DNA from: Hyaloscypha bicolor E
Taxonomy: Eukaryota; Ascomycota; Leotiomycetes; Helotiales; Hyaloscyphaceae
Assembly: GCF_002865645.1 (NCBI RefSeq)
Contig: NW_020194557.1
Span: 1,201,362-1,265,361, forward strand
Reading direction: 5' to 3'
Length of the DNA: 64,000 nt
Positions 13,653 to 64,000 of the stretch are shown here, piece by piece (the stretch's first letter is position 1; every line of letters starts with the position of its first letter). A program made the translations under genes and the position numbers. The notes beneath the pieces were generated by a model. It did not search any database. It was not told the origin of the DNA and was given only the letters and a program-made list of their open reading frames with translations.

Positions 13653-15602
13653 TTATTCGAAATGCAAAGTCTCAACTACCATCTTTCCTTCCTCCACTTC
13701 TGCTAGAATTTCCCCGTTCATCAAACCATAAATATAACATTTGCCTACTACCAGATACTTTTCTCCAATGGCTCGAATGACTAATGGTTTATCGCAGCCG
13801 AGCACAACACATATCTTGTCCCCAATTTGACTGTCCGGCGGACCCATCCCCATGTATCCTTTAGCGGTAATGAAAAGGGCTCTGTCACTAGAAGCAACTT
13901 CGAATGTGAATGCCCAATCTTGAGCATGTTGAGCAACACCAGATTCGTCGTAGGGTTCCGGCCACTGAAGTTCATCTTCCGGTCTAGTGGCCGCGAGGAA
14001 TGGATCCAGCATCTCTTTCTTTGACGGGATACCGGTTTCCACAAAGTCCAGTGAGGAGCATCTCCAAACAGTAAAGTTTTGTGCGAACAAACTCCCACTT
14101 TTATCGCCTTCTATAAATCTCTCTATTTGTTTTACAAACACCGGATCATTTTTACGACGCACTAGGCTGCCAGCCCCGACTATATACATGAAGCCGGCAG
14201 CTTCGTCGAAGAAATCGCTTTGCCTATTTCCGTGAACCCTCACCGAGTCGTCAGTGATTGTTGTTCGGAAAAATACTTGATACTGTGAGATTCCTGTAGG
14301 ATGGGGGACCTCGGCATGACTCAAAACTAGGTCTTGCCAACTTCTTTTCGGCCAACGCTCATGTTGTCGTTGGGACGTGATCGTATCAACTACTACACCA
14401 TCGCAATTCAAGATTTTCGATCCTGACGAGGAGCTGAAAATGCTTTTGCGCCCACCAGACGCACGATATTTACCTAAGCTCATGCTTTGGCCATGTCTGT
14501 TACCACTTCTAAAATCAGGGACCCACGAAGGTGTATCCAGAGGGTATTGGTCGCCTAAAATGCCAATTCCCGCAAACGAAATAATGGAAAGGTCAAGATA
14601 TGCCATGATATATTTCATGGTAAACTCTGCGTAAACCTCAGAGATCGGCTTATCATAGTCCGGCACCAGAAGTAGATTTTTCAGTTCTGCGACACCGAGC
14701 AGAGCATAAACCAAATCTCTCGGATCTGTTGATTTCAATCGAGTCATCAGATGTATAGGGGAAAAGTTCCACAAGTCGCCAAGTTCTCTGCTTTCGAAGT
14801 ACCTGGGGAGTTTGACGTGGATAAAGTCCATGGGAATCGAAAAGTTTGCAAGAATGAGGTAGATCAGCTGGTCCCCAGTTAACAGACTTCTTAATGGGCT
14901 GCTCACAATCCTTCCATGCGCCACCGAAGCGGTGCTAAGATCCAACCAGTCAAAACGGTCAGGGCCGCATCGAAATACCGCAGCCTTGGAGACTATGAAC
15001 TCCTGGAATACCCAGACTCGGGTCCACCATGGCCTTTCAAACAGCCTCCTCACTGCTAACCAGGCAGTTTCATCCAATAATCCCGGATTTTGCTCATATA
15101 GGTTCGAAACAATAGGTATTATCTCAACAGCTTCGGTCGCGGCGACCAAATTATCGACCAAGTTTGTATCAGTTAACATCCTAATCAACTCCACAGCCAG
15201 CGAACTATCCTCCCCTTCCTCGCCCAGCCAGACATCCACAAATTCGGCCCTGTGGTATAGATCCCTCATTATAGTAACCTGATGACTCTTCTCTGGGTTG
15301 TTCGTTTGATCGATGCAGATAGCATCGATCCAGTAAACTCGCGACTGGTCCGCATGCCTCAACCTTCGCAGCGCATGACACAAATTGACCGTTACCGGAA
15401 ACGAAACTCCATCAACGATGATAGGAAGGCGAACAGACGCGTCCCCCCAGCAATACGACAAGGCGATGTATTCTATTGCGTCTTCAAGGTTTGTCTTAAA
15501 TGCCTTGCATTCCACTGGAGCGGAGAAAGTGGGGGACGGCTGGATCTCGAGCAAGCGGATTTCACGCCGGCGGCGGTCGAGGGGTTGGTACTGATACGAC
15601 AT
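13653..15602 (-). CDS. HET-domain protein (heterokaryon incompatibility, HET-6-like)
   Basis: A single-exon gene of 649 residues, starting at the ATG at 15602 (MSYQYQPL, the usual beginning for this class). The frame extends upstream only to a TTG. The HET domain is complete: ALSYCWGD (about residues 47-54), a VDG..F.VT.NL..ALR.LR stretch, YWIDAICIDQ (about 90-99), VDVWLGE (about 122-128), and WWTRVWVFQEF near residue 200. The C-terminus has the family ending with GYMGMGPPDSQIGDKICVV and YLVVGKCYIYGLMNGEILAE. HET domains are TIR-like cell-death modules that trigger incompatibility when unlike strains fuse. Length and motifs are normal and I see no lesion. It sits between a hypothetical remnant and a large transposon that begins about 180 bp upstream of its start. 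Confidence 0.9.
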   Translation of the reverse strand: MSYQYQPLDRRRREIRLLEIQPSPTFSAPVECKAFKTNLEDAIEYIALSYCWGDASVRLPIIVDGVSFPVTVNLCHALRRLRHADQSRVYWIDAICIDQTNNPEKSHQVTIMRDLYHRAEFVDVWLGEEGEDSSLAVELIRMLTDTNLVDNLVAATEAVEIIPIVSNLYEQNPGLLDETAWLAVRRLFERPWWTRVWVFQEFIVSKAAVFRCGPDRFDWLDLSTASVAHGRIVSSPLRSLLTGDQLIYLILANFSIPMDFIHVKLPRYFESRELGDLWNFSPIHLMTRLKSTDPRDLVYALLGVAELKNLLLVPDYDKPISEVYAEFTMKYIMAYLDLSIISFAGIGILGDQYPLDTPSWVPDFRSGNRHGQSMSLGKYRASGGRKSIFSSSSGSKILNCDGVVVDTITSQRQHERWPKRSWQDLVLSHAEVPHPTGISQYQVFFRTTITDDSVRVHGNRQSDFFDEAAGFMYIVGAGSLVRRKNDPVFVKQIERFIEGDKSGSLFAQNFTVWRCSSLDFVETGIPSKKEMLDPFLAATRPEDELQWPEPYDESGVAQHAQDWAFTFEVASSDRALFITAKGYMGMGPPDSQIGDKICVVLGCDKPLVIRAIGEKYLVVGKCYIYGLMNGEILAEVEEGKMVVETLHFE

Positions 15603-15924
15603 GCTTCTGTGAAATAAAGACGCGAGCGAGTGCAAAATATTTGACTCCTTGTTCTGGACTCTTCCTAGGAGGCACAGTTTGTCGAGAACAGAAGTTGAGT
15701 GTGTGTGGGGTCGCGATCTCTTGAATTGGTGTTCTGTTGTGAGGCAGTGCTGGCTTCCGGCGTGTACCGAGCCTCTTTAGTACGGGTGACCATAGCGACC
15801 AAAAGGGTCAATGGCTTTTTCCGCAAAATCGAATTTTTGGAAAATCGAATTTTTGACCCATTACATATTACTTACTTGAATTATTCCACTTTTAACATAT
15901 TGCACGCATTATACGGCACTAAAA

Positions 15925-27649: not shown

Positions 27650-30600
27650 TTATCTGTTCCGCCTCGGCAAGTCGAGCCGAAAATACCTCCAACCCCACTC
27701 AACCACAATCCTGCCCACTAGTTCGGTAGCTACACCGTTAAAGATAGTCCTGCCCATAGCCGTTTCCCATCCATATATCCAGCTCCGAGACAACAAGTAC
27801 CTCGCCATCAGCGGAAGGCCAGCTAAACCATACAAAGCGCAGCCGATCGGAATCCATATCAACCAGCGTCGCGGAAACTGGTACGATGGTTCGATGTCGA
27901 GCCTCGTCGGCTGCTCTGTGGCCTCTAGGTCTTCGACCGAAATTTTATCGAGGGATTTTGCAAGCCGCTCGTATCGAACTCGCTCAGCCACGGCCTCTAG
28001 TCGCGGAACATCGATCAGGTAATATAAGGCGCGCCTGCCGCGGAAGAACGCCGAAGACATGGTGATCCGTGCATGGGGCATAACCATTTGAGTGAATTTG
28101 TAATACCAACTAAGTCCCGGAATCGTTGCCATCCACTGCATGAGCGGAGTGCCTTTGAGCGGATCGACGTGCGACCAGCAGGGATCTCGGTATAATGAGA
28201 CTGCTGCATAAGCCCAAACTACTCCTATGGTAATACCGATTGGGATTCGTAGACTACCTTGCAGGCTTTCAGCAATTGGTCTCCTGTATCTTGGCTTCAG
28301 TCCATCTGGAGTATCTAAGGTTGCGAGTTAGCGGCGGCCTAGACGAAGCCGGCAGAAGCCTTACCACAACTTAAAACGCAGATACGGTCGGTGATAATGC
28401 TCCCAGGTTCCAAATCCACAATATCTCCGCCAGCGTTCGATTGGATACCTCTGGTGGTAGATTGCAATTCCCATGTCAACGGGCAGATGAAATTTAACCG
28501 CATTCGAGCATCTACATCGTTTTCCTTATCAGATAGAAAGCAGCACGCCCCGAGGTTTGTTCGTGCGTGTATAAGAATACAAAGTGTAGATCCTGCTGGC
28601 ACGCGACGTAAATTTTCCAACGAATTGGGGTTCAAGAAGACAGATATCGTGTTGACACCTTTCTCATTGTTAGGCAAATGTGTCGTGCGCAAAAGGCTCG
28701 GGCTTGAGAAAATTGTTCCGTTCAGAGTTTCTACGCTGGACTGTGTCATCACCGCCTCCAGATTAGAATTTCGTAGGGAAAAACTCAGTCCACCGATCTT
28801 ATCCAGTCCGCTGCAGTCCCATCTCATGGTCCCGAACTCTAGATCCAATGATCCAGTTGGGAATCGAGGCATCCAGTCATTATTGTTACACATTGGCGTA
28901 TTTGGAGGAAAAGACGTGAATATCATTGACAACGGCAAGGATGCTTGTGACAGATACACTGCCAGCATCCGCTCAGCCGAGCTTCGTGTTTTTTGGTCGT
29001 CGTATGCCGGCACCCTCTTATCTTCGCCGGCGTCTGACTTGTGTGATCGCATTTGCGGATCAAGAATTTCTTGTGCGCTTAAACCGAGCAGGACGGCGAG
29101 GAGACCGTGCAAATCATCCGGTATGCTTGTCCTTCTGGACGCGAGATCATTCCATATCTGGACAAAGAGTGCCGGTTCCTGTGGCGATGAGCCATGGACG
29201 CTTCTGTTTAGTAAGTCTGGCATATCATTGAGTCCATCAAGAAATTCTCTCATGAGAGCTTTGACGAAGGTCCGTGGCGGCTTCCGAACAACACCACCGG
29301 CGTTGAGCAATGACAGGTGTTTCGGGTTGACCCACCCATCCATCAAGAGGAAAGTTGTCTGGCGTGACAGCGAGCCTTCCTGGTACGTCCAACTGCGTGT
29401 CATCCACGGACAGCTCATTAGCTCTGCTGCAAGTGAGAGCCCAGTTTCTGTCTGTACTGAGAGCTCTCTGACTGACTGATCGATTACCAAGACTTGCATT
29501 GCCATGGAGTATACTAGAGCCATGCTGTCGATTGCCTTCCTTTGAAGACGTTTTTCGTCCGGCGCTGGGTTGGCTGGAATGCATAGTGTGTCTATCCACA
29601 GGTATATTGTAGACGTGTCTTCGCCAGTGGCACCGAGAACGACACGCTCTAATGCATTTTGAAGCCAGAACCAGCCTTTTAAACCATAGTAGAGGGGAAG
29701 CAGTGATATATCGCCTTCGAGCCAGTCAGTGGTTTCCGTTAGATCTCTACCACCATCGCGATTGCCATAAGATATGTCGTGCTTGTTGGCCTTTGCTCCA
29801 TACAATTTCTGCCTGCAGGAACGAGCGCTCCGATAGAGGAAGTCTAGCTGGCACTGCGGAAGCGTATTTTCCGAGAAATTGCCAAGACCACCAGACCACA
29901 CATGAGAGATGGCGATATATGGTTTGCCATAAGCATGCTCTACGACTTCAATGTCAATATGAGCGCTCGGGCTGTCGTCTCTCGGCCGTAGTCGAATAAG
30001 TGGAATGCCGCCCCGAGAGATTATCGAAGATAAATCATCAAGTCGCCTGCCATCAACGCCGCGAAAAGCACAATCTGTCTTACTGCAGCTCGTTGCATGC
30101 TTTGTCTGATAGGTCGCATATTCGACGTCGTAGACTGTGCAGGGCCCGGCGGGTGGACATTCACCGTGGCCAGCGTGACGTACATGCGGTATACCAGACA
30201 TGTAGTACAGCTGAATGGGTGAGAGCTTTTGAGCGTAGACACGTGTCCAGTACGGGCACCAACCAGCCCCTATCAGTCGATGCTCCGGCCATTGAGCCCC
30301 CGTACGTCGACGGAATTCATAGAATCGCGACGTTCTTCGAGGGGATACTGACCATAGAAGCGCCCAAATCGAGAAACCGATAGTCCAGCAGGGCGGCTCG
30401 AACGTCTCAAGCAGGGCCACACATTGGAAAAACGCGGACGTAGCGTGTTGATTTCCGCGAAACAGGTCCTGAAGAAGCTGCTGAAATACCTTATCCCTGT
30501 CGAATAACCACTTCTTGCTCCAGCCGCAAGATTCATTCAACCTCCTCAGTGTGATGACTCGTAATCCAGGGTCCAAGGTGCCAGTGGTGACGAAGTCGCG

Positions 30601-30849
30601 AACGTCAAAGCTCTCACCGACGAGCTCGCGAAGAACGCGTAGGTAGATGCCTGCCTGCGCAAGCACAGCAATCTCGAGCATATCGTTTGATTCAGCCATT
30701 TTCAAAAACAAATAATCAATGATGGAAGACGGGAAGTCAACAGAAAAGGCTTCTGGAGGCACATATCGTGCCAAGTTCGCGTCAGTGCAGAAAAACGGAA
30801 CCTCGATGCCCGCTTGCGCAGGGTCATCAGGATATGGAAGAAAGTCCAT
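27650..30849 (-). CDS. Large HET-domain protein with C-terminal membrane region
   Basis: Two exons, 30849-28365 and 28314-27650, with a 50-nt intron (GTAAGG donor, CTAAC branch, CCTTAG acceptor), giving 1049 residues. Without splicing the first exon stops after 836 codons, just after the donor; the spliced frame continues in phase. HET signatures are YIAISHVWSGGLGN (about 310-323), LWIDTLCIP (about 417-425) and CPWMTRSWTYQEGSLS (about 475-490). The first 300 residues are a helical N-terminal region of the kind seen in long HET proteins, with a Cys-rich piece (HATSCSKTDCAF). Exon 2 adds hydrophobic helices (IPIGITIGVVWAYAAVSLY, then WLIWIPIGCALYGLAGLPL), so the protein is probably membrane-anchored. 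I see no lesion. Confidence 0.85.
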
Positions 30850-32763: not shown

Positions 32764-34971
32764 TTAAACTAGTGAAACTATCTCCCAGGCCCAATTTTCG
32801 ATAGAAATGTTCGGGTTTTCGAAAGATGCTATTCCAACACGACGATAAACGCTCGGCTCTCCCTCAACCAAATCAATGATCAAAGCATTCCATTTGCTGT
32901 GTTCCCTCTGCGTTGGCGAATTTGTTGAATCATGATTCCTTCCATCGTCCGGGGATTGAATGGTGGATCCGATGAGAAGTAGCTTGTATGCCTGCTTGCG
33001 GAGGTTTTTAGGATCATACCTCAGTATGCAATTACTAACATCTTCAGGCAATTCGAACTTAATTGCGCCCCAATTGTAATCATAATCACCTGGCTGAGGT
33101 CAAAATAGTACAAGCCGGCTAAAGGAACCGATTTATCGTATTGCCTTTCGCTCCGAAATAGTGACTGAGTACGCCCCTTTACCCGAAGTCTTCCCGACTT
33201 AACTTCACCGAAAGGGTTCTGCTGAACCAGGCCGATATCACATGTTATGAATTCTGCATCATCGAGTGTCGCCACCCGTCGATAAAATGGACGCGCAAAG
33301 TGGATCTCTCCTTCGCAGGATGCCCAACTCCATGAAGGTGCGCGAAACGCTTTTGTTGGCCTTGTTTTCGACCAGCTCTTCCATAGCAACCCCAGGTGCA
33401 GATCGTTACGCCACAACCCTGCCAGATAAATATCATTGGTGAGTTGATGGATATATGAAGCTAGTCCGGAAAGAGCAGGAAATTTATCTTTCTCGAATGT
33501 TAATTCTCGGTTGTCGCAGTAGAGGGAAAGTACACTGTGCCACAGGTTGTAGATGTCGTCTCCTCTTGCTTCAGAGTGGGCTACTATGTAATTTGAGGTC
33601 GCCCAAAGCGTTGTGAGTGATAGAAAGTTGACGAAGAAGGATTCGATGACTGGAGAGTCTTGTTCTCCATCAGCTGCATGGTGTCCTCCTTGGCACTCCC
33701 AATAGATTTGCCTCTTCCCGAAATAAAGAGTCCTGTGAGACAATAGTCGTTCTTGCAGTGTCCAACTTCGCTTTGCTAATGGTGCGTCAAATAGGCAAAA
33801 GAAGAGGTCCTCCTCTCTCCAATCAACTCTTGTCAGAGAGACTGTATCTCGCGAGTCGGAGTTCGCATGAAGCTTGAGCTGGCAAGGCGGGTCTAATTCT
33901 TTGGATGCCTGAGGTGGTACACTTAAAAGTCCCGTGTGACTATTTGGGGCACTTGCAGCCGCAATTGTAATGGCAGCTCGTCGATATATCTCTCCCATCG
34001 CGCCTGACTCCCTGTCCCAGTCGTCTGGACAGTCTTGAAGAATGCACAAAGAGTCAATCCATAGGTATGAAAATCCAAGTCTGTGTGCAACAATCACGGC
34101 ATCTCTAAACATGGCTGGCATACTAGCGAGTGCGATGCCTCTTGACATTTGTTCAGTCGTTGCCTTAGTTGCTACCAGTGAATTTTGCCCTCCCCAGCAG
34201 TAACTCAGCGCGACATATTTGCCCGTCTAACCCTCTGAGGTTAAGAGGTGAACGTCTTGCAGATCGATTGTTGTCCCGAAGTAAAGGATCCGTGTTGGGA
34301 GAACGACATCTTCGATATCTGGACATCCCAGGGATCGGTGTTCTCTTTGACAAGTTGATAGCCATTGTCTCGCGAGATCCAAGTTCGAAGTTGATCCAAG
34401 GTTGGCATCTAAGTCAAACCGCCCTACTCTATATTGTCCCAGGCTCCTAAGTGGAACTGAGATAATCAGCCTAACTGAAGTAAATCAGTTTCATGCATTT
34501 GAATGCATTTCACGTACGTCTTGGTGCACTCAGCCGAAAAACAACCAGCATATCTTCAGGTAATGCGCTCGCAAACTGCAGATACAGAGCATCATTTGCG
34601 GGAGAAAGTCCATGTTCACGCGTTCCGTGATAATCTCCTAGACAGATTCTCACGTCTACCCTCTGTCCTCTGGCAAGTGCTTTATATATCATCTCTTCAA
34701 TCGTCTTCTGAGACCTAAATGAGTCTAGGCCACCGTTCCATCCATCCCACAAGTCTGGTCGTCCAAAGCACTGGTACTGAGAGCATTCTTTCCAGATAGC
34801 ATGGCACAGCTCACAGCCAGCTTTAGCTGATGTAATGAGATCTTCGTAGCTCGGTTGGTGTTGGTAATATCTCTGAGGGAACGTGAGAGGATATGCATAT
34901 ATATAGCCAAGTTTCTCGGCTATCTGGAGAAGGCCAGTAATCGTAAGGTTGTCACAATAGCTACAGAGCAC
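32764..34971 (-). pseudogene. HET-domain gene broken by a stop and a frameshift
   Basis: The first exon runs from about 34971 to 34518 (CSYC and CELCHAIWKEC zinc-like N-terminus typical of HET proteins). A 61-nt intron follows (GTACGT donor at 34517, CTCAG acceptor at 34457), then exon 2 from 34456. The HET core is well kept: VALSYCWGG, LGFSYLWIDSLCILQD, IYRRAAITIAAASA, KRSWTLQERLLSHRTLYFG. Three problems appear. An in-frame TAG at 34227-34229 lies a few codons before VALSYCWGG. At about 33089 the frame shifts by one base, the true C-terminal part continuing in another frame to 32764. No ATG is visible in frame at the 5' end (the first open codon is GTG), unless an upstream exon exists. Probably inactive. 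Confidence 0.78.
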
Positions 34972-35713
34972 CTTGAGGGCAGGGTACGACAGGGTGGGTT
35001 AAAAAAGGAAAGAATCGACCGTTATCAATCAAATGAAAACTGTGATCAAACATCGAGCTAACAAAATTGTTCGCTTAGCTCTGTTGCGAGTAACCGAGTT
35101 TCACACTCAGTATATAAGGGTTTAGGGTTAAGCTAAGGTCAGGGCCATTCATTCCGAAAATAAACGTTGCCAAGGCGCAGCGTTTTTTTCTGCCGGTGCA
35201 CGTGATCAGCACGTGCCACACGCGAATAGCTATATTCTTCACTAGATAAAAGAATATATTTAGAAAGGCTATATAAAGATTACTAGTAAAGGAAATAAGG
35301 AGGCTACTTAATAAGTAATTAATTAGTAAGTAATTAATCAAGCATACGGGATCCTTATTAGTCAGCTTTCCCCCACTACCCAAATTTTCTAAACAAGGGG
35401 TAATTTTCTTAAAAACGCTGCCACTAGCAATAGCGTTTTCAGTTACGGGATAAGTAGTAGTTTTTATTATAATTTGAGATAACTTGCCCGCAATAAGGTA
35501 TTTCTTTAAACGGAGAACGAGAAGCTTCCATTAGTACATTGTACTATAACTCTATTAATTTAATTTATAAGAAAAATGCTTGTTATTATCGTACTAATTA
35601 ATTAAAGGGGCCTTGTAACCGGACCTAAGCTTTACTCGGGCGGTGAGGGATATGCGCACTAGCCGTATCTGGGGCGAAGGTGCGGCAGCGTTTTTTTTGC
35701 GGGGATAATCTTA
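34972..35713. other. Intergenic, repeat-rich
   Basis: Short AT-rich patches, a CACGTGATCAGCACGTG palindrome at about 35200 and GC-rich pieces. No gene supported. The 102-codon minus frame at 35075-35383 is low in complexity and rejected. Confidence 0.35.
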
Positions 35714-36415
35714 CGAGCCCAACCTCATAGGTCTGTGCGTACAGGGCATTTTAGTGATAACGAATATTTTAGAACTTTTAAATTTTGAGAATTAATTCAT
35801 AGAACTATACTTTACCTACTTTAATTCTCAAAGCCCGGATCGTGGGCCGTAATTATTTGTTGCTGTCTTGTAACAGTTACGAGCCTGCGACCATGGGTCT
35901 GTGCGCACAGGCGCTTTTTCAGGCTTCACTCAACCAGCCCCCTAAACAACCCACCATAGCCCTGAACACACCCCCACCGCTCAATTTTCAGCACGAGAAA
36001 GGCTATGAGATCCCTACGAAACATAAGGAGGCTATGCGCCAGCTTCGCTGGTTTGGAAAGGTCCCCGTTTGCGCCCTAATAGTACGATACAAGCTCAGCG
36101 ATACCACGGTCCGCAAGATCCTTAGCTACCCTTACCCAGAATGACGACGCCCTAATAAGCTGATTTTAAGGCAAGAGCATTGGGTACAAGTACTTATGTA
36201 GCGGCATGGGTAGTCAACTCCTAATTAAACGCTACTTTAATACCTAACTTTCGTGCTTTTTTGATGAAAATGCCCTGTGCGCACAGACCCATGGTTGCAG
36301 GCTCGTTAAGTGATTGTGAAGACTTTTGCTATTCGAGACCCTGAAGTAGTCTTCGCGTAGCCTGAAAATGCCCGGAAAATGCCCTGTGCGCACAGACCCA
36401 TGGGGTTGGGTATCG
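35714..36415. mobile_element. Nested TIR elements with a transposase HTH fragment
   Basis: The outer pair of inverted ends is at 35714-35753 and 36376-36415 (core GGTCTGTGCGCACAGGGC). A second pair of the same family lies inside, at 35880-35915 and 36270-36305. All four ends are flanked by TTA (35711, 35877, 36306, 36416), suggesting a 3-bp TTA or a TA duplication. The short + frame 35842-36144 contains a helix-turn-helix-like piece, KHKEAMRQLRWFGKVP then YKLSDTTVRKILSYPYPE, as in the N-terminus of fungal Tc1-like transposases, then stops. The DDE core is missing. It looks like a truncated element nested in a relative. Confidence 0.6.
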
Positions 36416-36595
36416 TTACATTCTATCACGTTTAAGAATACAAAATCTGTCATTATTCATCGTCCCTCAATTGCGCGCGATTGAGTAAAGCCTCGAATGG
36501 TTATCCAACTTGGATATCGTTTTTGCGCCGGAAATATTCGAGCAGTGAATCTGGACAACCCACTCGGTGCGGTCACGAAGTCATTCCACAAACGA

Positions 36596-37510
36596 TTAAT
36601 CCATCCTTTTCGTCTCTACATCAAAACTTAGCCCGTTCCACCCAATTTTAAGGTCCTTTGTATCCAACCCACCACCAAGCTCAATTTCGTCTTCCTGCAT
36701 AGTTTCATCCTCCGAGTCTTCCTCTTCCTCAATCACTTCATCTTCATCTCTTCCCATAGCAAGATGCTTCGCCTTTGCATACTTCGCCGGTCCCAGAACA
36801 ACATCGTCTCTGAAATAGCCAGGGACTGATTTATCGAAAGGCCTTTTCACCTTGACGACATCATACGCAACCGCAAAGATCAGAGGCTCCTTCGACGAAA
36901 ACTTTTGTCCGCGCACATTGTTGTCTGATGCCGATAGCTTGACACTCAAATCGGGTCCAGGAATTGGTCCAAGAGCGATAGTTGATAATGGAACCTGTCC
37001 TTTGATGCCAGCTGAATGTCCTCGCGTCCGCTCACGAGTCCAAACGGAGCCTTCTGTGGTGATGAATCCAACGACGAAGTAAGCTTTCCGGACACCATGC
37101 TCTTTCAAAAAAGCTCGAACCTCGGTGTTGTAAGCATCATCTTTCATCAGTCTACCGAAGGAATCTTTGGTCTGCTCCAGCGAGTATCTTTTGACCACCT
37201 TGCTTTCCAGAGTCAACTTCTCCTCGTCGGTCCTCGCGACGTTGAACCCGAAGAACTCGGTGAGACCAGTCCGTGCTTCCCCCGAAATGTTATTTTGGAT
37301 GAAATCTTTCCGGTTTGTCGACAGGAGGGGACTAGGGAGCAGATTTGGGATGATGTCTTGTGGATTTCGTCCTGATGAGGTTTCCTCCACAGCCTCTCTG
37401 GGTGCGAATGCTTGCAGCGGTGAGGCTATATCTAAGACGACACGACCAATCAATTTCCCAGCATTACTTTCAGCAATGGACTCGTCGAGGACGAAATGGC
37501 GGGCTGGCAT
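36596..37510 (-). CDS. Gasdermin-like protein (RCD-1/HET-Q1 type), probable pore former
   Basis: Single exon, 304 residues, starting at ATG 37510. The N-terminal 225 residues resemble fungal gasdermins in order of features: ESNAGKLIGRVVLDIASPLQ near residues 14-33, a FI..ISGEAR segment, LESKVVKRYSLEQ, then AYFVVGFITTEGSVWTRERT and a late strand LIFAVAYDVVKV. The last two look like the paired strands of the gasdermin pore-forming domain. The C-terminal 80 residues are strongly acidic (EDEVIEEEEDSEDE) and end IGWNGLSFDVETKRMD, a likely regulatory tail to be removed by proteolysis. In fungi such genes usually sit beside a subtilisin or CHAT-domain protease gene, and a CHAT gene lies divergently 379 bp away. 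The family call rests on remembered patterns plus this context, without a search. Confidence 0.62.
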   Translation of the reverse strand: MPARHFVLDESIAESNAGKLIGRVVLDIASPLQAFAPREAVEETSSGRNPQDIIPNLLPSPLLSTNRKDFIQNNISGEARTGLTEFFGFNVARTDEEKLTLESKVVKRYSLEQTKDSFGRLMKDDAYNTEVRAFLKEHGVRKAYFVVGFITTEGSVWTRERTRGHSAGIKGQVPLSTIALGPIPGPDLSVKLSASDNNVRGQKFSSKEPLIFAVAYDVVKVKRPFDKSVPGYFRDDVVLGPAKYAKAKHLAMGRDEDEVIEEEEDSEDETMQEDEIELGGGLDTKDLKIGWNGLSFDVETKRMD

Positions 37511-37889
37511 GTTGAACAGGTAGAGCTCTGGTCGGTGGTGCTGGCGTCGTGACCCTCAAGCCTGAAGCTGCGGGGTTGGGCACGCCTTTTCAGCTTCGAG
37601 TCAAAAGAAAAACTTCTAAAACGCCACGCTCGTGGTATAGTGGCTATTGGCATATTGGTAGCACTAAATCGGGCCTGAAACATGACCTAAGGGGCATTGG
37701 TACAAGCGCGGTGGCTGAGTGCCACAACATCCAGGGCTGAATCACGAGGATGTGTCACAGTGTCACTGACCTGACCCCAAGAAACACAGCCTCCATCCTA
37801 AAGATGTGAACTCTTTTGCTATCTCCATCAACTTAAGTCCAGTCCCCGAACAATTCGTTCACCAACACTCGTCACGCTTGTCCACAGCA
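37511..37889. promoter_or_regulatory. Shared divergent promoter region
   Basis: 379 bp between the start codons of the gasdermin-like gene (minus) and the CHAT-STAND gene (plus), so they probably share control elements. No clear TATA box. The + reading frame is open upstream to 37806, but only from a GTG, so the ATG at 37890 (context GCAATGG) is taken as the start. Confidence 0.5.
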
Positions 37890-40800
37890 ATGGGAGAAGC
37901 CTCGGGGACAACAACCTATCACCTGAGAATACTCGCTGAAGCCTCGAAGACGGACGTGCCTGGATGGGGAGTCGCTGTGTATCTCGGCGGGGCCTGTTTT
38001 GCCAAGAACATCACACTTTCAGACCCCTTCACAAATATCGAAGAGGATGAGTGTCGGTGGTATCTGGAAGACTATCTCACCAAATCCCCTTTCGAGAAGG
38101 GCAGAGCAGAGCTCGCTGTCGAGTCCCTGAATTCGTATGCAGACAGTTTGTTTGAACAGTTGCATCTGAGTCGAGTCTGGAGGAGGCTGAGTGACAAGAC
38201 AAATCACTCCAACAAAGTCCTCGAAATAGATATTGTGGAAGACACCAAAGACTCCAGCTCTGTCTCATCGGATACAATCCACCGACTTCATTGGGAAGTT
38301 CTCGAGTGGCCACGACTATGGAAGCATATCAGGCTGCAAACATTACTCCGGCGTATCATCCCGCAAAATGAAGCAACGAATCTCACCATTAACAGAGTTG
38401 AGTCTTGGTCGAGAGGGGTGCCGTCGGTCAACGTGCTGCTTGTGATATCACGGAGACTTATCAATCAGGGAGCAGATGAGGTGGATCCGAACTTGGCATT
38501 ACAAAGCCTCCAAACTCTTCAAAAAGATTTGGAGACTCGAGAAGCACCCTTCCGCCTTAACATTGAGACCGTTCGTCCAGGCTCATTCAAAGCCTTGAAA
38601 AGACACTTGGAAGAAAGATCTGAACGTCAACACAGCGGCGATGTTCATATTGTTCATTTCGATGTACATGGCCGAGTGGGTCTTCGAAGCGTGAAAGGGG
38701 AAGACAAAGCAACAACGGCAGCTTTCCTTTATTTTCAATCTGGAAAGGGCGACGGCAGATTGTCCCCAACTCGAGCTGGGTCCGTTGCGGACCTCTTGCG
38801 GAAACACAACATTCGTATTGCCGTCCTTAATGCTTGTGAATCTGCCAAGGCAAACAAGGGAGACGAGGCGAACCTAGCAAGAGTCTTCACCAAAGCCGGC
38901 GTTCAGAATGTACTTGCTATGGCGTATAGGACCCTTGGGAGCACATCAACGGAATTCATGCGTGCCTTTTACGAGGCTCTCATCGCCAGAGGCAAACCAT
39001 TTTCGACGGCTATACGTATTGCACGAGAGCACCTACGCGCATCACCAATTAGAGACGCCCGTTTCGCTCTCAGGAGATCACTAGAGGACTGGATCGTACC
39101 TGTTGTGTACGCAAGTGGAAAAGATGTTGAGCTTCATATTTCCTCTGTTGAGAAAGGTGTCCTCGCCCTCGAGAATCCAACACTTACCACAACAACTCCC
39201 AAAGACCAACTTACAACTCCTCTTACGCTCTTTGGGCGCGGTTTTGACGTCCTCAGGTTCGAAACTATTTTCCTTGCCTCAAAGCTCATTGGAATTTCAG
39301 GTCCTGCAGGAGTTGGAAAGACTGCGTTCGTTCACCACCTTTTGCGCTGCTGGAAAGACACGCGACTGTACGAAAAGACACTTTATGTGGACTGTGCGTC
39401 AATCGATGTGAGTGAAGTCGATACTCCCGGAGCGCTATTTCAACGAATCTTAAGTGATGAAAATCCGGGGAAGAGTGGCCAATTTGAGGAAGACGAGACC
39501 GTATATCGATCCAACTTGTCAGAACTTGGGAGCCATTTTCAAGTCATCGTTTTCGATAATCTGGAAGCAAGCCACTCGGCATTCAAAGAAATGGACGAAC
39601 ATGGTCGCTGGCCAGAAAATGCAAGAATTGCTTTGGTAACCCTGATAAGAGATATCATCAACAGCAGATCACAGTACGAAGAAAGCCCGTCACTGATTTT
39701 GGTTGGGAGACGGGATGACGATGACTGGTGGGCGGGGCAGTTCCCAGACCTGCCTGGATTTCCCCGCTATAAACTGAGGGATTTGTCCCATCCGGATGCC
39801 ATAGAGCTCTCTCATAATGTTCTTGAAGATTTAGGATTCGACAGAAGTCAGTGGAACAATGAGGATGAGAATATCTTGTCACAAGTTCTGAACATACTTC
39901 AATGCAACCCATTGGCCATTGATATCGTTCTAAGAACAGTTGTCTCCAAGAATCATCCCTGGAAAGAATTGTTCAATCAGATATTATTCCACCAATTCAC
40001 CGGAGCATGGCTTTTGCATGAGTACCAATGCCGCTTTCAAACCCGAGACATAATGTTTGGTAGTAACACGGGACCCCTTTCGGAATATTATGCCAACGTC
40101 TACTGCAATTTGACCCTTTACTGGCACGAAGGACCAGTAAAGGATGTTTTTCAAAACTGGTTGGATGCTTCTCTAGAGGGAGGTGGTTGCAAAGCGATCG
40201 AATTTGGGGTCGATAGGGGATATTTCTCTTTGAATCCCGAAGGACGTATCGAACAGATCCACCCATTGTTCACTCTTCTCGGGCGCTCCATATTTCCTTT
40301 GGTACCTGGAATTCTTGCAGTGGGGCTTGTGTGGGCGATGGCAGCGGAGGAAGAATCATTGCCAGATCAGTTTGTCGAATAGTTCGTCGCGTTATTCTTC
40401 CAGGGGATGTGGAGTCGAAACTTAAATGAACCACTACGTTCAAACGTCGTCGATGGAAAGTTCACAGAGATAGAGAAAGATGCGAGGCCGGCCTTCTACA
40501 ACATTCTCACCTGTCTAAAACTCTGCTCGATGGGTAAAGACTTCGTCTATCCAAGTATCTGGCCGGAGGATCTAATCGTATACGTCACCCTTGGAATATA
40601 TTTTCTTTCCGTGGACGAGATGTCTCTTCTTATCAAACATTACGAACATTTCCTCCGGAGATTCATAATGCGCCGCACAATGACGGAAGATGCGCTGACG
40701 CTCTTCCGCATGATCTCAATTGGAAACAGCCTTACCACTGCCCATTGGACTCTCTCGACCCTCGACATAAAGCGAGCTCTAGAGTTTTCTCGATTGACAT

Positions 40801-42632
40801 ACGACATAATCGACAAAACGGACGCGGCATTGCTTAAAGACCCTAGTCTCACCGGTGCTGTTTCGTTCGCCATGATGAATCGTGGATTTGCCGACTTTGC
40901 GCAGGGCACGAAGACTGTGGCGGAGTGCAGAGCTTCGGGCAACTCAATACCTGACATGATGTTCCGCCAGGTCCGAGATGACGAACAGAGGTCCTTGATT
41001 GACTCGTTGACCTGGGATGACGTCCCAAATCCCAACCAGGTACCAAATCTACAGCAACTGGCTCCTCAGATGGAGCGTATCTTTGAAAATAGAGATATGC
41101 AAGCCCGTGTATCCGAGATAAGTGAATCAGTCCATCGCGGCACAGGTTCAGTTGAGTTGATGGATACTGTTCTCGGGGAATCTGCCATACGCCCAAATCA
41201 AGAGGAGTTCCTCGAGCGGTGGACCAACTTATGGAGTCAGGCAGTACAACAAGGTTCCAATGTGAGGAGTCTGGACTTGGAGAAAGCACTCGACGTACGA
41301 AATCGGCTTGACGCAATCACACATTACAAAGCACTCTTGACGCAGGCGCTCAAAGAACAGAACGTGGAAGCACTTATCGAAATACTAAATTCCATGATTG
41401 AAATCTTCCAGTCAGATGAAGTATTCGCAGAGGACCTCACCCAGGCACTGAAGGTCAAAAAGGCGTTCGAGAGTGTCGTCCGAGTCATTCAAGTGTGTAT
41501 ATCTCCAGGTATAAACAGATCCCCTACAGAAATCCAAGCTATCTTGGATGACGTCGACACCGTGGAGTTTCTGGAATCTCAGAAAGAGTACCATGACTCC
41601 ATGCGAGAACACCTGCGGAAAGTGGTGAAAAGAAAGCTGCTGGAGGGTGAAAGTAAAGAAGCGATCAAACACCCGAAGAGACGCTTGAACGATGTGATGA
41701 AAGAGGTGATGGGATATGCGGCCACACCGGAAGGCCAGGCAAAATTGCTCGAATTTGGCGTCCCACTTCGAGCTCGTATCAAGCAACTCGAGCAAGCGAT
41801 AGAGGCCGAGGACTTTGAGACAGCTATTGCTACAATGGACCAAATCGTCGAGAACAACAATCCAACTATGTTCGCTGACTTCGATACAATGGATATGGCC
41901 CAGGAACGGCAAAGGCTTGTCAGTTCTTGTGACTTCAAGAAAGCTCTTGTTCCTTATAATCATGCCCTGCAAGAGAATCGCCTTGAAGATGCAATTGCCA
42001 TAGCCGAGGGTCTTCTCCAGGATCATGAAGGCGGCAAGTATCCAAACTTGATGGAACATCTTGTCCTCGGTACACGGGCCGCGATGGAGCGGCTAGTCTG
42101 GTTAAGACATGCTCAGAAATGGGAGATGGCTTTCATTGCTGATGACTACCCAACTGCTTTCACTGAGATCAGGACACTGAGGCGACTTGAAACGTCGAGA
42201 GCACTCGACGAACCAATAACAGCACCAATCCTAACAACAACACAAACCGTCACCTTCTATGCACGTGATATTACCGAGTGGGACTATCTCAGAACGCTTC
42301 ATCGACACTTCGGCGAAACTAAACGCCCTCGGCTTGCTCTTAGGACAGTGGTGGCTCTGCTAGAGCGATATGACCATCCCGACGACCTCGAACAACCTGC
42401 ATGGCTTCTTGCCGGGGTCATTGAGAGTGAACGTGGGTTTAAATGGCTTTACGAGATTGAAGTTGCAATTGGAAAGTACACGAGTTGCCTCGCTGTGGAC
42501 CGCAATATAACCTCAGCTGCCAAGCACCTTGAGGTTGTGCAACGGCTCATGACCCAGAATGTTCCCGAGGAGATACCGCAGAAAGAATTCAAGAGGGTAA
42601 ATTTCAGCAGAGAAGGACTCGACAACCTCTGA
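37890..42632 (+). pseudogene. CHAT protease / STAND NTPase / helical-repeat protein, interrupted by one TAG
   Basis: One reading frame of 1581 codons runs from ATG 37890 to the stop at 42632 with a single internal TAG at 40380-40382 (codon 831). Domain 1 is a CHAT caspase-like protease: VHFDVHG with His260 and VLNACES with Cys316 form the expected dyad, followed by GVQNVLAMAYR and AFYEALIARGKPFSTAI. Domain 2 is a STAND-type NTPase: ISGPAGVGKT (471-478), VIVFDNLE as Walker B, LILVGRRDD and CNPLAIDIV. After the TAG come about 750 residues of helical, TPR-like repeats. A 102-nt in-phase intron (40302-40403) could remove the stop, but its GTACCT donor is weak and no branch site is visible. Most likely a recent nonsense mutation; a truncated 830-residue protease-NTPase might still be made. 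It pairs with the gasdermin-like gene. Confidence 0.78.
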
Positions 42633-42890
42633 AGGTCTTTACGCTCGGATTCACCTCTAATTGGCGGTACCTCTCATCCTTCGTCTTCTTTTTGATCTCT
42701 GGACTGGACAAATACTCACGCTCCCCTCCTTCGACCAAAACCAACGTACTGCCAGTGTTCTTGTCGTCTTCTTGAACCAGACTTGGAGCACAACAATACT
42801 TCCAATTTGCCAGCTTTGTCCTCAACAGAACGCATACCAACATTCGTCTCCTACTCAGCCTGCGCTTCCTTCTACTGAGGCCATTAGCGG
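42633..42890. other. 3' flank of the CHAT-STAND gene
   Basis: Normal composition, with no gene of its own. The large transposon inserted just after it, about 260 bp past the stop codon. Confidence 0.4.
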
Positions 42891-45800
42891 GCTAGCGGAC
42901 AAATCCGAGAAGCGAAAAGTGATTTTCTGATTTTCTGATTTTCGAGCCCACACCTCACTAAAAAAAAAAAGTACAGCATACACGCCTTATTCTTGACTAC
43001 TCCTAACCCCCCCTTAGCTTGCGTGGTCCGTAAGGCAAATCCCATAGATTACGAGGCATATCTCTATTTCCCTTACTATCTATATCCTCCGTACTACCTA
43101 TATTACTCGAATTATCTATATCTCCTTTATCCCCTTCTCCTCTAGTATCCTTATCCTCTTCTACTATAACCTTTTTCCCTATTACCTTCTAACCTTATAT
43201 CTGTTTTTATACTCGCTTTCTATATCTTATAGGCGGTCGAGGCTTTAGTATAAAGGATTTTATAGATATAGAGTAAGGCTTTCCAGACTTGGTAGAATTA
43301 GTATTAAGTTAATAGAAAGTATAAACTTTACTATTATTATTATATCTATAATTTATATAAGTACTATTATTATTATATCTATAATTTATATAAGTACTAT
43401 TAAATTTGCCTTCTATAACTATATAGTATTTAAAAAGGCTTCTCGGTCTCTTCTTATTACTATAAGTAATATAAGTTTAAGAGAATTTAGTTCCGCAAGT
43501 ATATATTAAGCTTGCCTCTAGATTTGCCTTGCCTTTCTCTAATCTCTTTAGCTCCCTGCCCTAGTATAGCTTTATCTCTCTAACTTTAGTCTTATTATTA
43601 ATTCGCTTTACTACTTTAGTAGTATTATTAGGTAATATAAGGAGATTAAAGTATTATTATAGAAAAGAAGAAGAAAGTCATATATAAGAAAGAAGTCGAG
43701 GAGTAAAGGGATTTATTAGTTAAATATATTAATGAGAGAGAATATTATAGACTAAGTCTAGATTATTAGAGAATATATTATAAATATTATTTTTCTGCTT
43801 ATTTATAGCTTTATTATCTTTTTTATTACTTTTACTTTTATTAGAGCTATTATCTAAAGCTATATTTAATATATCTTTAATAAAAAAGAACTTTAATAAT
43901 AGTATTATATATTAGAATTAAAGTTATTTTTAAAAGAAGATTAAAGTTAAGGTTAAGGCTAAAGTTAAAGCTAATATAGCTATATCTTTATTATTTACTT
44001 TTAGAATATAAAAATATATATTTAATATAATTATTTAAATCCAAATAAATTTATAATAAATAATACTTAAAAATAAAAATATTAGTACTTAATAGCCCTA
44101 GATTAAGTATATTTAAATATTAAAAAAATTATAATTTTAGATATTATAATTATAAAAATAAAAATATAAATATTTTTTTTCTTACTAATTCGTAAAAGCT
44201 AAGATATACTAATAATAATTAAATTATATTTAACTTATATAATTAGTTAATTTACTTTACTAATTATAAATAATTTAAAGTAATTTAAATTTCCTTAAAT
44301 CTCTATATATAGCTTATTATATAAACTTCTATATTTCTATATTTAGTAATATTATAATTTTTAAATAAAAAAAATTCTTTTATTCTAGTATATATAATTA
44401 TATTTATTTCTTATTTTTCAAATATATAATTATTAAATTAAAAAGATTTAAGAATTCTAAGTAATACTTTTTCCTAAAAGATATATATTCTTAATAAATA
44501 ATAAAAGTAAATATAAAATTATATAATAATATAATTACCCTATATTAATAACTTTATTTTCTATAAAACTATAACTCTATTTTATTTTTACTTTAAAACC
44601 TCTATTCTTCTTCTATATTTTTTCGACTTTACTATTAATACCAAGAGCTTCTATCCTCTACTAATACCTTCTCTATTAATACCTTTATTAATACTTTTAT
44701 TAATACCTCTATTAATATTAAGAGCTAGTATCTAATTACCTTATAATCTTTCTTTTCTTTTCCTTACTTCTTCTTACTCTTTCTCCTTATTCCTCTTCCG
44801 AATCTCTTTTCTAAACCCCTTCTTCTTTAATACTTCTTCTATTAATACTAAAAGCTAGTATCTAACTACTTTATAATCTTTCTTTCCTTTTTTAAATTCC
44901 TCTAAATCCCTTTTTTAAATCCCTTCTCCGAACCCCTTCTTCTTTAATATTTCTACTAATAATATTAAAAGCTAGTACCTAATTATTATTTCCGGGTCAC
45001 TTTTATTCAGAACTCTCATATTATAAGTCTTTAATCCACTTACTTCTTAGAAAGCTAAATTTTAAATTCCTTCTCTCTTTTTCTAATATTTCCTTTTCTC
45101 TTTTTCTAATATTTCTTATACTTTTGGGCCCTTTAGAAATACCTTCTCTCAAACTTCCAAAAAAGAAACTAACTTCTATTTAGATCCCTTCGAACTTTAA
45201 TATCTTCTCTCCTCTTTTAATACTTATAAAAGCCTTTGGGCTATTACTAAATACCTCTATTCTTTATCTTGAAATATATACTAACTTATTCTTATAAGAA
45301 ATAGCCTTTCTTTCTCTAATCTCGATTTCTTTAATATATATTTCTTATTTTTAGGCTATTTAGATATTTCTTTATTTACTTTTATAAAATATATACTAAC
45401 TTACTTTTTAGTTTCCCTTATCTTATCTTTTCTTTAATATTACTATATATATCTAGTTAGTACTAGTTCTTATAACCTATAATTAGGCTTTCTATTTATT
45501 AAATACCCGGGTATTTTATTTTACTTTTACTTTATATATTTTATTTTATATATTTTATTTTTCTTTTATTATAGATTAAAACTCAAATAGTATTTATCTT
45601 AAGTACTTATATTCTCGGATATATAAGACTTCTATATATCTTTCAGGGTTATAAACTAGTCTATTTTAGTTCGGAAAAGCTTTCTTGAGAATATTTTAGG
45701 AATTATAGTATTTATTATAATTTCTTTTAAAAATTAATATAATATAAGTATTTCTGGTTTATTCTCTTTTTATAAAGCAAACCGCTATCCTAAGTTTATA

Positions 45801-48800
45801 TAAAAGTTCTAATTATTTTTTGAGTTAAAATATAAGTACTTTTTATTTTTATTAAATTAGGTATAAAAAATAGTAGGTGCCTTTAGGCTAGATTATAATA
45901 CTAGTTAAATACTAAAACTTCCTATATCTATCTTATAAACTTATAATTCAAGATATATTATATTTAATAGGGCTTTTATATCTAATTATTTTATATTATA
46001 GTAAAATATCTTAGTATTATAATTAGAAAAGTTCTACTTTATAATCTTATTTACTACTTATAGATTTTCTAGCTAATAAGTCTTGGCTAATAACTAAGAA
46101 ACTTATTAGCTATTTTATCTAAAGCCTTTAGAAGCGGGAAGTTACTTTAATAAAGACTTAGTATTAAAAATAGGTTTAACTAATTAATCTAAATAAGGAG
46201 TTTATAGTAGAAGTTTTTATATATAGGTAATTTTATATAATAAACTCAAGTTCCTATTTCTAGTTATATAAATAAGCTATATAAGAAACTCTTTCTGGCT
46301 TATTAGAATAATTCCTATTCTTAATTATATGAGTTATAATATATAATAAACTCAAACTTTTCTTGAATTATTTTTAGAAAAATTAGTAAGCTTTTCTAAA
46401 TAAACTTATTAAGGCCTTAGTTTTCAAAAATATTAGTCTAGCCTTTTTATTTCTTTCTTAAGTAATAGTTTAGCTCTCAGGAATTATATATAAATATTGA
46501 AATAAAAAAAAAAATATACTATATATATTTTCTAGATAAATTAGAATAAAACCTATAGGATTCCTATAATATTTTTATTAAATTTATAATACTAGCTAGT
46601 AAAAACTTTAATAATCTTAATAAGACTTGAATTATAAATCCGGCCCTCAGATTTCCTACTTAACTTAAAGGTTAAGTAGTTTATAATAGATTACTTATTA
46701 TAAAACATATTATATTCTTTTCCTAAAAAGTATTAGATATTAATAATAATTTAGAAGCTCTAAAGCCCTTTAGACTTTTTATAAGTTTCGGGCTTTAGGG
46801 CTTTTTTATAGCTAGCTAATTATATAAAGTCACGTAATTATACGAGTCCGGTATTAATATAAAGTAATTAGTAACTTTATATATAAATATAGTATAGTTT
46901 TTAGTATAACTAATCTAATATATTATATATTTATATATAAATACTTATAATTTTATTATTATAATATAATATATTCTTAATATATCCTTAATATAAAAAT
47001 TTCTTTATAATCCTAGATTTTTAGGAGCCTCTTTTATACTAAAGGCAAAGTATATAATACTATTTAGGTATTAAACTCAAAAGGCAAAGAATTATAAAAG
47101 CCCTAATAATTATAAGACTTTATAAACTTAAATAAATTTGAGTATTATAAAAGTATTAAATTTAGTAGCCTGATTTTTAAATTATATAAGAACTAATTAA
47201 AGAGTATTATTTTAAAATATTAATTATAAATTTCAAATATATATATATCCGCAAGAAAATAAGACCCAAAATAGTATTAAGCTAATTATAAGATATAGGA
47301 AAAAATATATTAGATATTAGGCCTATTTTTTCTTAATTACCTTAACCTTAATAAATATTTATATATAATTTATTAGACCTTATATAATAAGTTTACTTAG
47401 GAGAAATAAGGTTAATTAGCCTGAGAAGTTTAATAATAATAGTTAGACTTCTGTTTAGAGTAATAAGTAAAGTACTAGTAATAGCCCGGATATTTTGAGT
47501 TTGACTTATAAAGCTAAAGATATTATACTTATTAATTTTCTATATCTAATAAAAAAGAGAGATAATATATTTATATCTTTAATATATTTATTATTATAGA
47601 ATAATACTTATATAATTTATAAGATTAATTATAGTTCTCTTTACTAGAAAAGAAAATAATAAAATTAAAGAAGAATCTAATAGCTTACTACTATTATTAT
47701 TATTATTACTATTAGGATTAGCTTTAGTAATACTTTTAGTAATACTTTCCGTATTATCTTATAGCTCCTAAAAATTAATAAATAGAAAAGAATCCTAATA
47801 TATATAAGTTAATTAAACCTAAAAATAAAAAAGAATTTATAGAAGAAATAAAGAATAGAAGCCAGAATTAAAGAAAAGAATTATATATATACCTTTATTT
47901 ACCTACTAGTTTATTAGATTTCTTCTTATTCTTAAAGTCTTATACCTATACTAGTAAGTAATACTTTTCTGGGCTTTTTGGGCTTCCTTAGTCTATTATT
48001 TAATCTCCTCAAGTTATTATACTTTCTAAGTATTTTCTAGCTCTTTATAAGTAACTTTAAGATAAAGATCTTTATATAAAGTTTTCTTCTAAATATTTTT
48101 TAGCTTTTTATAAGTAATTTTAAGACGGATATCTTTATATAAAGTCTTATCCTAGTATAAAACAAGAAAAATTATTTAGATATCTTTAGGGTCTAGATAT
48201 ATATTATAGTAAGAAAGATTAAAAATAGTTTAAATAGAACCTAGTAAGACTATAAGTTCCTGAGCTCTTTTATTATTAAGACTAATATAAAATACTAGTT
48301 TATTTATATTATTAATAAATTAATAATAGCGGATAGGTTTACTAATATAGAAAGAGAAGTAAGAAAGTAATTACTAAGAAACTATATTAGAAAGAATAGA
48401 AAAAACTCGATTATTTATTTTAAATTAAAAGCTACTTATTAAAAAATATCTATTAGAATTTATATAGAGAATTTAATAAAAGAAATAGAAGAAAACTTAC
48501 TACTAACTTCTTTAGAAAATTAAATAGTTCTTTACTTAGCTCTCTAATTCTTTATATTATTAAATACCTACTTATAAAGAACTAGTTATAAAATTATAGT
48601 TTATAATTTTATAAGACTAGATCCGGCTATATTTTAATTCATAAGACCTTAAAAAGCTCCAGGTAGCCTATTACCGGTATAAGAAGCTATAGCCTAGATA
48701 GCGGCCTAAATAACTCTTATATTTATAGCCCGTTAAGCTTATATAATAATATAAGTATTATTAGAAAAGTAGTTAGGTTAAGTAATATGGCTTATAGTAA

Positions 48801-51800
48801 AAGGAAATATAGAAAGAAGTAATTATAGGGCTATTAAAGTAAAAGAAGTTTAGAATAAAGTAAAACTAGTACCTAGTAGCTATATAATAATAGTAACTAG
48901 AGAAATAGATATAATAGATATTTCTAAAAGAAAAAATACAGGATAAAAATACTAAAAAAAGCTAGAGATTTAAAGTATTTTAGGTATAAAAAAGGAAATA
49001 AATATAAACGGAATTCTAGAGCTATAAAATTCAAGTTTACTAGTATTATTACTTTAGGCAAGTAAAGTAGTAGCCTTTATATTATATTTATTATTAGTAG
49101 ATTAATAAAACTTATAATATTAGATATTATTATATTAGTATTTAGTTATAAGATATATAATATTAAAGCAGGTTTTAAGAAATAATAGTATTATTTTAAG
49201 AGATAAGAATTTAAGAATATAGAATATTTATATAGTAAATAAACTTAATAATTTTATTAGTATTATTCTTAAAAATAAGAAAAGAATTTCAAAAATAATA
49301 TATTTAATAATAAATAATACTTATCTTAATATATCTAGTTATTTTACAACTGGCTCGTTTAATTACCCTATATTATTAGAAGTATTACTAATAAAGGGCT
49401 ATTTCTAGATAAAGTTCTGAATTATTAGGAATTATACGAGTATTTTTCTAGCTTATATATTATTTATATATTCTATATTTATTAGAATAATTTATTTAAG
49501 AATTCTATTTCATATAATAGTAATATTATATTTACTAGTTAGCTTCTCGAACTCTCCTAATATTAGTAGCTGCCCTGAGGCTATATATATCCGGACTATA
49601 TATTAGAGCTAGTAATAAGCTTAAATATATAATTAGTTATTATTTCTATTAGTATCTCCTATATAAATATTAGCTATATTTATATTATAAAATATAAGCT
49701 TCTAATAATATTACTCTAGTATTTCTCTTAATAGAAACTTATTAATATCTATATTAGTATATAAGTAAATTATTTATATAAAGCTATATAAGGTTATATT
49801 ACTTACCCTAAACTAAATAATTATTAAGGATTATATTATAAAGCTTTATATCTATAGGACGACCCTAGTACTATATCCTGCCTAGGGGCCTTATATATAG
49901 TCTAAATAGCTTACCGGCTACTATATTAGGTCTAGATCTGTCTTTTCTAATCTTATAAATATTTTATAAGTTTATAAACCTATATATCTTATTTTAAATT
50001 TACTATATATAAAGTACTAGTAAAGTAATCTGGTTTTATAGGTATTAGTAATTATAATTCCCGGTATAAGCTAGTTCCTAAAAGTAGTTCTATATATACT
50101 AATCGGAATTAGTTATATAATCCGGTACTATAATACTAGACCTAATAGCCTTAATAAAAAGTAGTATAATTATTAGTACCTAATACTTTCTCCTAATAAT
50201 AGAAAGAATAAGAAGCAGATATAAGAAAACGGAATTACTTATATATTACTAGTATAGCTAGCTTTTCTAAAGCTCTTATTACCAGGATTTAACCCGTTAA
50301 TTCTCGGTACTTTTCCCAGAAATAAAGTAGTTTTCTATATATATAACTAATAAATTAGCTATCTACAAGAATATAAAGTATATTTTAGTAATAAGAAAGA
50401 ATTTAGAGCCTTAATTAGCCCTAAGAAAGTAAAGGCAGTAGCCTATTTAAGTATAAATCTAAAGATACTACTATATAATTAAATAAGTAATCTAATTAGA
50501 GATTTTAATATATATCTAGATAATATTATATAAATAAATATTAATATAAGTATATATCTTAATCCCAAATAGTAATAGCTTATTATATTTATTAATTAAC
50601 TAAATCTAGTCCGGCCCAGATATAATATATTTTCTCTTTTTAAACTATATCTATTATATTTATAGTATAATTACCTCGGGATCTAGAAGTTATAATATTA
50701 TATATAAGCTCTCCCTATAAATAATAAAATATATTAGTAAATAAGGCCCTAATTTTCCAAGCTAGGATAAAATAGTAAAGTATAAAAAGACTAACCGGGT
50801 TACTAATAAACCTTATTAATAGAAGTATATATATAAATACTATTATCTATAACTTATAACCTGCCTATTATTTAGCTTACTCTATAATATTATAAATAGT
50901 TACTTATTCGCTGCTTACCTATCTATTATAGTTATATAGTAAATAAGACCAAGCTTCTTATATATATAAATAACTTTAGTAATTAAAGCTATATAACTAT
51001 AATTCTCAAGATCCTTAAGTATTTCCTTATTTATATCTCTCAGATAATATAGGATTATAATCTATATATAAAGAAAAGATATATCTACTATTTAAATATA
51101 TATTTAGATATTCTATTCTTATAGTTACTATTAGATCATATATAAATTAACTGAGATTTTATATAAATCTTTTAATCTATTTATAATTTCTTCTTAATTA
51201 ATATTTATATAAGCCCATTTAGTAATAGCTTTATAATATAGTAATAGATTTATTAAAAGTCATAATATTATTTTAATAAAATCTACTAAGTTATTTTAAT
51301 AGGGATTAAGTTCAGGGCATACTTTACTATTATAATATACTTTTTAGTAATATAAGTACTAAAAAACTCGAGTAATATTACCCCTATATAATTTTATTAA
51401 TTAATTACTAAAAAAAAGTAATTAGCCGGCTTCTTAGTTATTTTAATAATTTAATTTTCTTATTTCTAATCTCGGAAACATTAAGGAAGTTATTAGACCC
51501 TGTTAATAGCATTATCCTAGAAGGGCTTATAGCCTATAATTACCTGACTATAGTAATTTGTAATAAATACTTAATTTTATATTATATTACCTGGCCTAAT
51601 TTTGGCATAATTTCATACGGTAATATAGGCTCTCACTTCGTTAATTAGACAAGCAAGCAGCCTTACTATTATTGCGTTATCTAAGCCGAAAGTCACGTAT
51701 GGGTGCTATACCCCTAATTAGGAATTCTGCCTTGGGGAGGAGAGGGGGGGGGGGTGTGCGGGGCGCTAGTGCGAAAATCAGAAAATCAGAAAATCACTTT

Positions 51801-63905: not shown

Positions 63906-64000
63906 TTAGGGTTAGGGTTAGGGTTAGGGTTAGGGTTAGGGTTAGGGTTAGGGTTAGGGTTAGGGTTAGGGTTAGGGTTAGGGTTAGGGTTAGGGTTAGG
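63906..64000 (+). repeat. Telomere repeat (TTAGGG)n
   Basis: Fifteen perfect TTAGGG units plus TTAGG run to the last base of the window. The G-rich strand points 5' to 3' outward, as at a right-hand chromosome end. There are no degenerate units at the inner border. Confidence 0.98.

Follow-up and report, generated by a model that had tools for sequence, protein, structure and literature searches.

A gasdermin-like gene beside an interrupted CHAT-NOD receptor gene in Hyaloscypha bicolor: a likely fungal cell-death gene pair

Do two divergent genes near a chromosome end of Hyaloscypha bicolor E form a cell-death system in which a protease receptor releases a pore former, and is that system whole? 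The genes lie in the terminal 64 kb of contig C23 (NW_020194557.1) of this 82 Mb genome, and the whole stretch of 64,000 nucleotides is called the window here. One encodes a 304-aa gasdermin-like protein, and the other a receptor with an N-terminal CHAT domain followed by a nucleotide-binding oligomerization domain (NOD). CHAT domains are cysteine proteases of the separase/caspase clan, and NODs are ATPases of the NACHT/NB-ARC type. We consider it likely that the pair is a fungal two-gene regulated-cell-death module composed of a tail-inhibited gasdermin and a CHAT-NOD receptor, the latter interrupted after its NOD. Coordinates are collected in Table 1.

The predicted structure of the 304-aa protein matches the gasdermin N-domain, upholding the gasdermin likeness proposed in an initial annotation of this DNA. 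The closest solved fold is RCD-1 (PDB 8jyz, 8jyx and 8jyy), both in Foldseek and in VIA, the latter being a second look at Foldseek's own list, and bacterial gasdermins follow at ranks 5-6 (Foldseek) and 4-5 (VIA). A profile built from 15 of 24 homologues, four paralogues and the window protein (A3) has RCD-1-1 (E 0.0012) and RCD-1-2 (E 0.14) as its two best matches among PDB sequences, a weak signal that agrees with the fold; neither a single-sequence query nor a narrower profile (A1) recovered RCD-1 there. The 24 homologues, found at E<=1e-3, exceed chance, and one protein match comes from Hyaloscypha bicolor. Pfam searches on the 25 members of A1 gave no relevant family, NCBIfam and PADLOC left the protein unmatched, and no relative turned up among the viral and prokaryote contigs scanned, which a fungal family would lead one to expect. 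A 96% identical gasdermin (P0001; 17 member sequences, 1248-base contig) is present in ENA data; the same or a close species was thus sampled elsewhere, and this is a possible source for a survey of alleles.

The gasdermin fold spans about residues 1-247 and is followed by the segment HLAMG (249-253) and an acidic tail (254-304). Net charge is +6 over residues 1-250 and -16 over the last 54, as the initial annotation of an acidic C-terminus implied. The C-terminal end is acidic (-14 to -21) in the window protein and three of its four paralogues, the paralogue on contig C1 having only -3; disorder of the tail was modelled for the window gasdermin alone. HLAMG is conserved and lies immediately ahead of the acidic stretch, with L250 invariant across the 25 rows of A1, though not in the broader A3. 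Passages in reviews (among PMC10197012, PMC12881547, PMC10989679 and PMC9815663) describe cleavage of HET-Q1 at F238 with loss of about 40 residues, compared with the approximately 51-54 that would be lost here, and by analogy with that site we predict cleavage of the window gasdermin at about residues 250-253.

The receptor starts at ATG 37890, as the alignment column of this codon opens six other rows of A2 (five of 29 receptor matches plus the C34 paralogue), and the GTG at 37806 is merely the mechanical start of the open reading frame (ORF). Measured from this ATG, the two genes are divergent and 379 bp apart, exactly as first annotated. Pfam identifies CHAT (1.2e-16) and NACHT (9.7e-8), in line with the domains proposed earlier, and the NOD ATPase has both a Walker A motif and a winged-helix domain (WHD). 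The CHAT domain is supported by profile and by fold; the top Foldseek rows for the receptor are NOD-type ATPases, and matches to the CHAT fold were obtained from VIA. His260 and Cys316 (numbered from ATG 37890), which we take to be the CHAT catalytic dyad, do not vary in any of the 24 sequences of an alignment that drew on 23 of the 29 receptor matches (A4), and the same holds for G471, G474, G476 and K477 of Walker A; the earlier description of both sites as intact therefore stands. NCBIfam and PADLOC gave only weak, sub-threshold matches to the receptor, whose relatives include proteins of Hyaloscypha variabilis.

Linkage of the two gene types was examined among paralogues of this one genome, with searches that score best candidates only, so that all counts are lower bounds. 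With five gasdermin-like proteins as queries, seven gasdermin-like places were found at E<=0.01, six of which adjoin a match from a list of 23 CHAT matches (about 22 loci). The seventh lies approximately 0.5 kb from a stretch that resembles the tetratricopeptide repeat (TPR) half of the C25 receptor (E 5e-7); this remnant has no open frame of 60 codons, and a CHAT domain was not seen there. Five places have open frames (C23, C34, C45, C25 and C1:3155822), so the window gene is accompanied by four more open-frame gasdermin-like genes, each adjoining a CHAT gene. The other two are a fragment on C58 and a degraded copy at C1:2909638 with many in-frame stops. The relic gasdermin-receptor places on C1 (L043) and C58 (L030) suggest that such pairs arise and are lost over time. 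The arrangement is divergent at C23, C34 and C45, tandem at C25 (1,159 bp) and convergent at C1 (629 bp). The CHAT genes of C25 and C1 are of a TPR type, in which CHAT is C-terminal and NACHT went unmatched. Relatives of the N-terminal half of the window receptor occur at only two further places (E<=0.001), C34 and C45, both with gasdermins. Neither outcome that the initial annotation had named as contrary to it, an unrelated fold or a lack of conserved linkage, was thus observed, linkage having been checked in paralogues of the same genome.

Across the five open-frame pairs, similarity among gasdermins and similarity among CHAT domains are correlated (r 0.81, 2 of 120 permutations; r 0.73, 5 of 120), which is suggestive only, given five pairs, of partners that co-vary. 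Since the C45 receptor is split, this Mantel test compared CHAT domains over their C-terminal half only; gasdermins were compared over residues 1-250 in four cases and at full length for C25, and the C45 gasdermin began one codon late in both the charge and the similarity comparison. Two observations complicate the picture. Pairing is not reciprocal: in a flank scan of 20 regions of about 10 kb around all CHAT matches outside the window (ORFs of at least 80 codons; one C70 match sits at the edge of its region), the A1 profile found a gasdermin-like ORF in four, plus the C58 fragment. Nor does the C45 receptor (L013, 2571-7173) fit a simple account, being divided among three ORFs, with Lys where the catalytic His is expected (HFDMKG); possible causes are introns, decay or a pseudoprotease.

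Clusters of this general kind are known. Passages in reviews (among PMC10197012, PMC12881547 and PMC10989679) put the number of fungal gasdermins at about 1900 across 400 genomes, with some 80% of them clustered with protease genes. CHAT genes lie near 19% of gasdermins in one review and make up about 17% of partner proteases in another; dozens of NOD-like receptors (NLRs) or NLR-like proteins carry CHAT, and one review states that a gasdermin of Podospora anserina is activated by a CHAT protease with TPRs. Two-gene clusters of a fungal gasdermin and a protease, including CHAT-NLRs (the Q2-L clusters of Clave et al. 2022), are relayed in passages of PMC10197012, PMC12881547, PMC10989679 and PMC9815663. 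As far as these passages describe them, Q2-L-type clusters likewise place a gasdermin gene beside a gene for an N-terminal CHAT, a NOD and a long C-terminal region; the window receptor differs in its in-frame stop after the NOD and in a C-terminal half without a Pfam family over cut-off. HET-Q1/HET-Q2 of P. anserina, as described there, also combines a short-tailed fungal gasdermin with a protease, but HET-Q2 is a subtilisin-like serine protease and not CHAT, and the cleavage reported for that pair is only predicted here. Bacterial gasdermin-protease anti-phage pairs, in the same accounts, resemble the window pair in setting a pore former beside its activating protease, whereas the window gasdermin belongs to a fungal sequence family and had no sequence relative in the prokaryote contig scan. 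A large CHAT-domain protein, hetB, acts in heterokaryon incompatibility in Aspergillus fumigatus according to passages of PMC11138114, with a gasdermin partner unverified, whereas here a gasdermin gene is adjacent. The window gasdermin lies well within 10 kb of a gene for a protease-bearing receptor, and the pair is one more case of an established type of fungal cell-death gene cluster, unusual solely in its interrupted receptor. The candidate cell-death system of the initial annotation thus keeps its pair architecture, while its novelty was overstated.

By likeness to these published fungal pairs, the best reading is that the CHAT receptor would cut the tail off the pore former. The short acidic C-terminal tail would hold the gasdermin inactive. 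A ligand, supplied by a parasite or by a different strain during fusion, would relieve the helical C-terminal half of the receptor, upon which the NOD could oligomerise. Brought together in this way, the CHAT domains would turn active and cleave the gasdermin within HLAMG or close to it, and the freed N-domain could form plasma-membrane pores and so cause cell death.

Table 1. Features of the gasdermin/receptor locus and nearby HET-domain ORFs, in window positions
Feature	Position	Strand	Basis or detail
Gasdermin-like predicted pore former, 304 aa	36596..37510	-	ORF, fold, profile
Acidic C-terminal tail (residues 254-304 + stop), predicted inhibitory/removable	36596..36751	-	Charge; predicted cleavage just upstream
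Divergent intergenic region, start codon to start codon	37511..37889		379 bp; sequence and ORFs
Receptor N-terminal half, 830 aa	37890..40382	+	CHAT protease ~9-416 (His260/Cys316); NOD ATPase ~439-828 (Walker A 471-477)
In-frame TAG between end of WHD and helical half	40380..40382	+	ORFs; P0026-P0029 gapless across site
Receptor C-terminal helical half, same frame	40383..42632	+	749 open codons, first ATG 40407; full-length relatives
HET-domain ORF	13653..15635	-	Pfam 8e-32
HET-domain ORF	28339..30849	-	Pfam 9e-9
HET-domain ORF	33021..34148	-	Pfam 6e-23; ~2.4 kb from gasdermin

The receptor departs from this scheme at one codon. The initial annotation had described a single open gene of CHAT protease, STAND NTPase and helical repeats reaching 42632; the architecture is supported, but the receptor consists of two same-frame ORFs, 37890-40382 and 40407-42632, split by a TAG. 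This stop comes after residue 830, just past the last predicted NOD helices, leaving CHAT and a complete NOD and cutting the C-terminal sensor/repeat region off the protein. The helical half, presumed to be both sensor and autoinhibitory part, is probably not translated here as part of the receptor. Its sequence gave no Pfam family over cut-off and matches the genome at one place only; since the assembly contains one copy of the locus, there is no second allele to compare it with. The TAG may be an assembly error. Most likely, the receptor allele would be impaired, or at best encode a CHAT-NOD protein without its sensor. Because the stop interrupts the receptor after the WHD, the system is probably not a working whole, and its cell-death function in this strain is probably impaired.

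Could the receptor nevertheless be intact, with a short intron or readthrough removing or bypassing the TAG and the pair fully working? In favour, 749 codons stay open past the TAG, compared with a maximum of 212 over 500 base shuffles, the gene bears no sign of repeat-induced point mutation (RIP), and frame-keeping GT...AG pairs can be found by eye around 40302-40403. An intron at the TAG is, however, unlikely because four of four close relatives (P0026-P0029; 1525-1580 aa, 49-52% identity over 95-98% of length) align gapless across the site and would lose conserved sequence to it, and because the same-genome C34 paralogue is a single ORF of 1661 aa. By eye, under the usual splice and branch-point rules, the stretch also has no convincing branch point. 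We rejected the intron provisionally on the gapless relatives, and regard an intact receptor as unlikely.

If the truncation is real, the protease could instead be constitutively on without its sensor and kill fusion partners that have a cleavable gasdermin, comparable to the pseudogenization model of het-Q1/het-Q2. The position of the TAG, which spares CHAT, a complete NOD and the invariant catalytic residues, would suit such an allele, and passages in reviews present constitutive activity of sensors as one way in which allorecognition systems arise. The adjacent gasdermin gene is open, however, and an expressed autoactive receptor would be suicidal unless this gasdermin resists cleavage; moreover, cells often degrade transcripts that carry an early stop. 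We consider an autoactive allele quite improbable, and the bolder proposal, that the TAG is an adaptive truncation in which the autoactive CHAT-NOD protein sits beside a resistant or silenced gasdermin as a new heterokaryon-incompatibility allele, very unlikely. A further possibility is that the gasdermin works without CHAT, which would cut something else. RCD-1 of Neurospora crassa, the closest structure and the source of the best two PDB sequences, is activated by mixing allelic variants instead of by cleavage, according to passages among PMC10197012, PMC12881547, PMC10989679 and PMC9815663, and the C45 pair lacks the catalytic His. RCD-1-1 and RCD-1-2 are shorter, though, at 257 and 244 aa in these accounts, without the acidic tail added here, and the adjacency of six of the seven gasdermin-like places to a CHAT match, with a receptor-like remnant at the seventh, as well as the covariation of partners, also speak against independence, so that we hold it to be improbable. 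We thus prefer the two-gene module with an interrupted receptor.

The pair is located approximately 21-27 kb from a telomere, as (TTAGGG)n repeats at 63906-63995 mark the chromosome end at the edge of the window. It lies within an island of normal GC content with AT-rich blocks on both sides; such blocks (19-22% GC) occupy 16001-24000, 44001-50000 and 58001-62000 and have strong RIP indices (1.32-1.38 / 0.19-0.47). No RIP signal is found in the pair itself, whose three segments have indices of 0.42-0.57 / 1.21-1.29. On these values we rejected ongoing RIP in the pair, while a single change would still be compatible with them. Three ORFs with a HET (heterokaryon incompatibility) domain lie in this subtelomeric window as well (Table 1). 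Next to the gasdermin gene, a little past its 3' end, is a short dispersed repeat of about 115 bp (36305-36419) with 24 more full or partial matches in the genome, of which seven approach full length and are 91-99% identical. An Rfam search over 35500-43500 returned zero matches.

This locus adds a structurally supported pair of a CHAT-NLR and a gasdermin, and two styles of pairing, CHAT-NLR and TPR-CHAT, can be compared within a single strain. With a receptor broken between NOD and sensor beside an open gasdermin gene, it becomes testable whether loss of the sensor switches such a receptor off or keeps it stuck on, a question on which the pseudogenization model of allorecognition rests. Adaptive truncation, if true, would be the CHAT-NLR counterpart of that published route.
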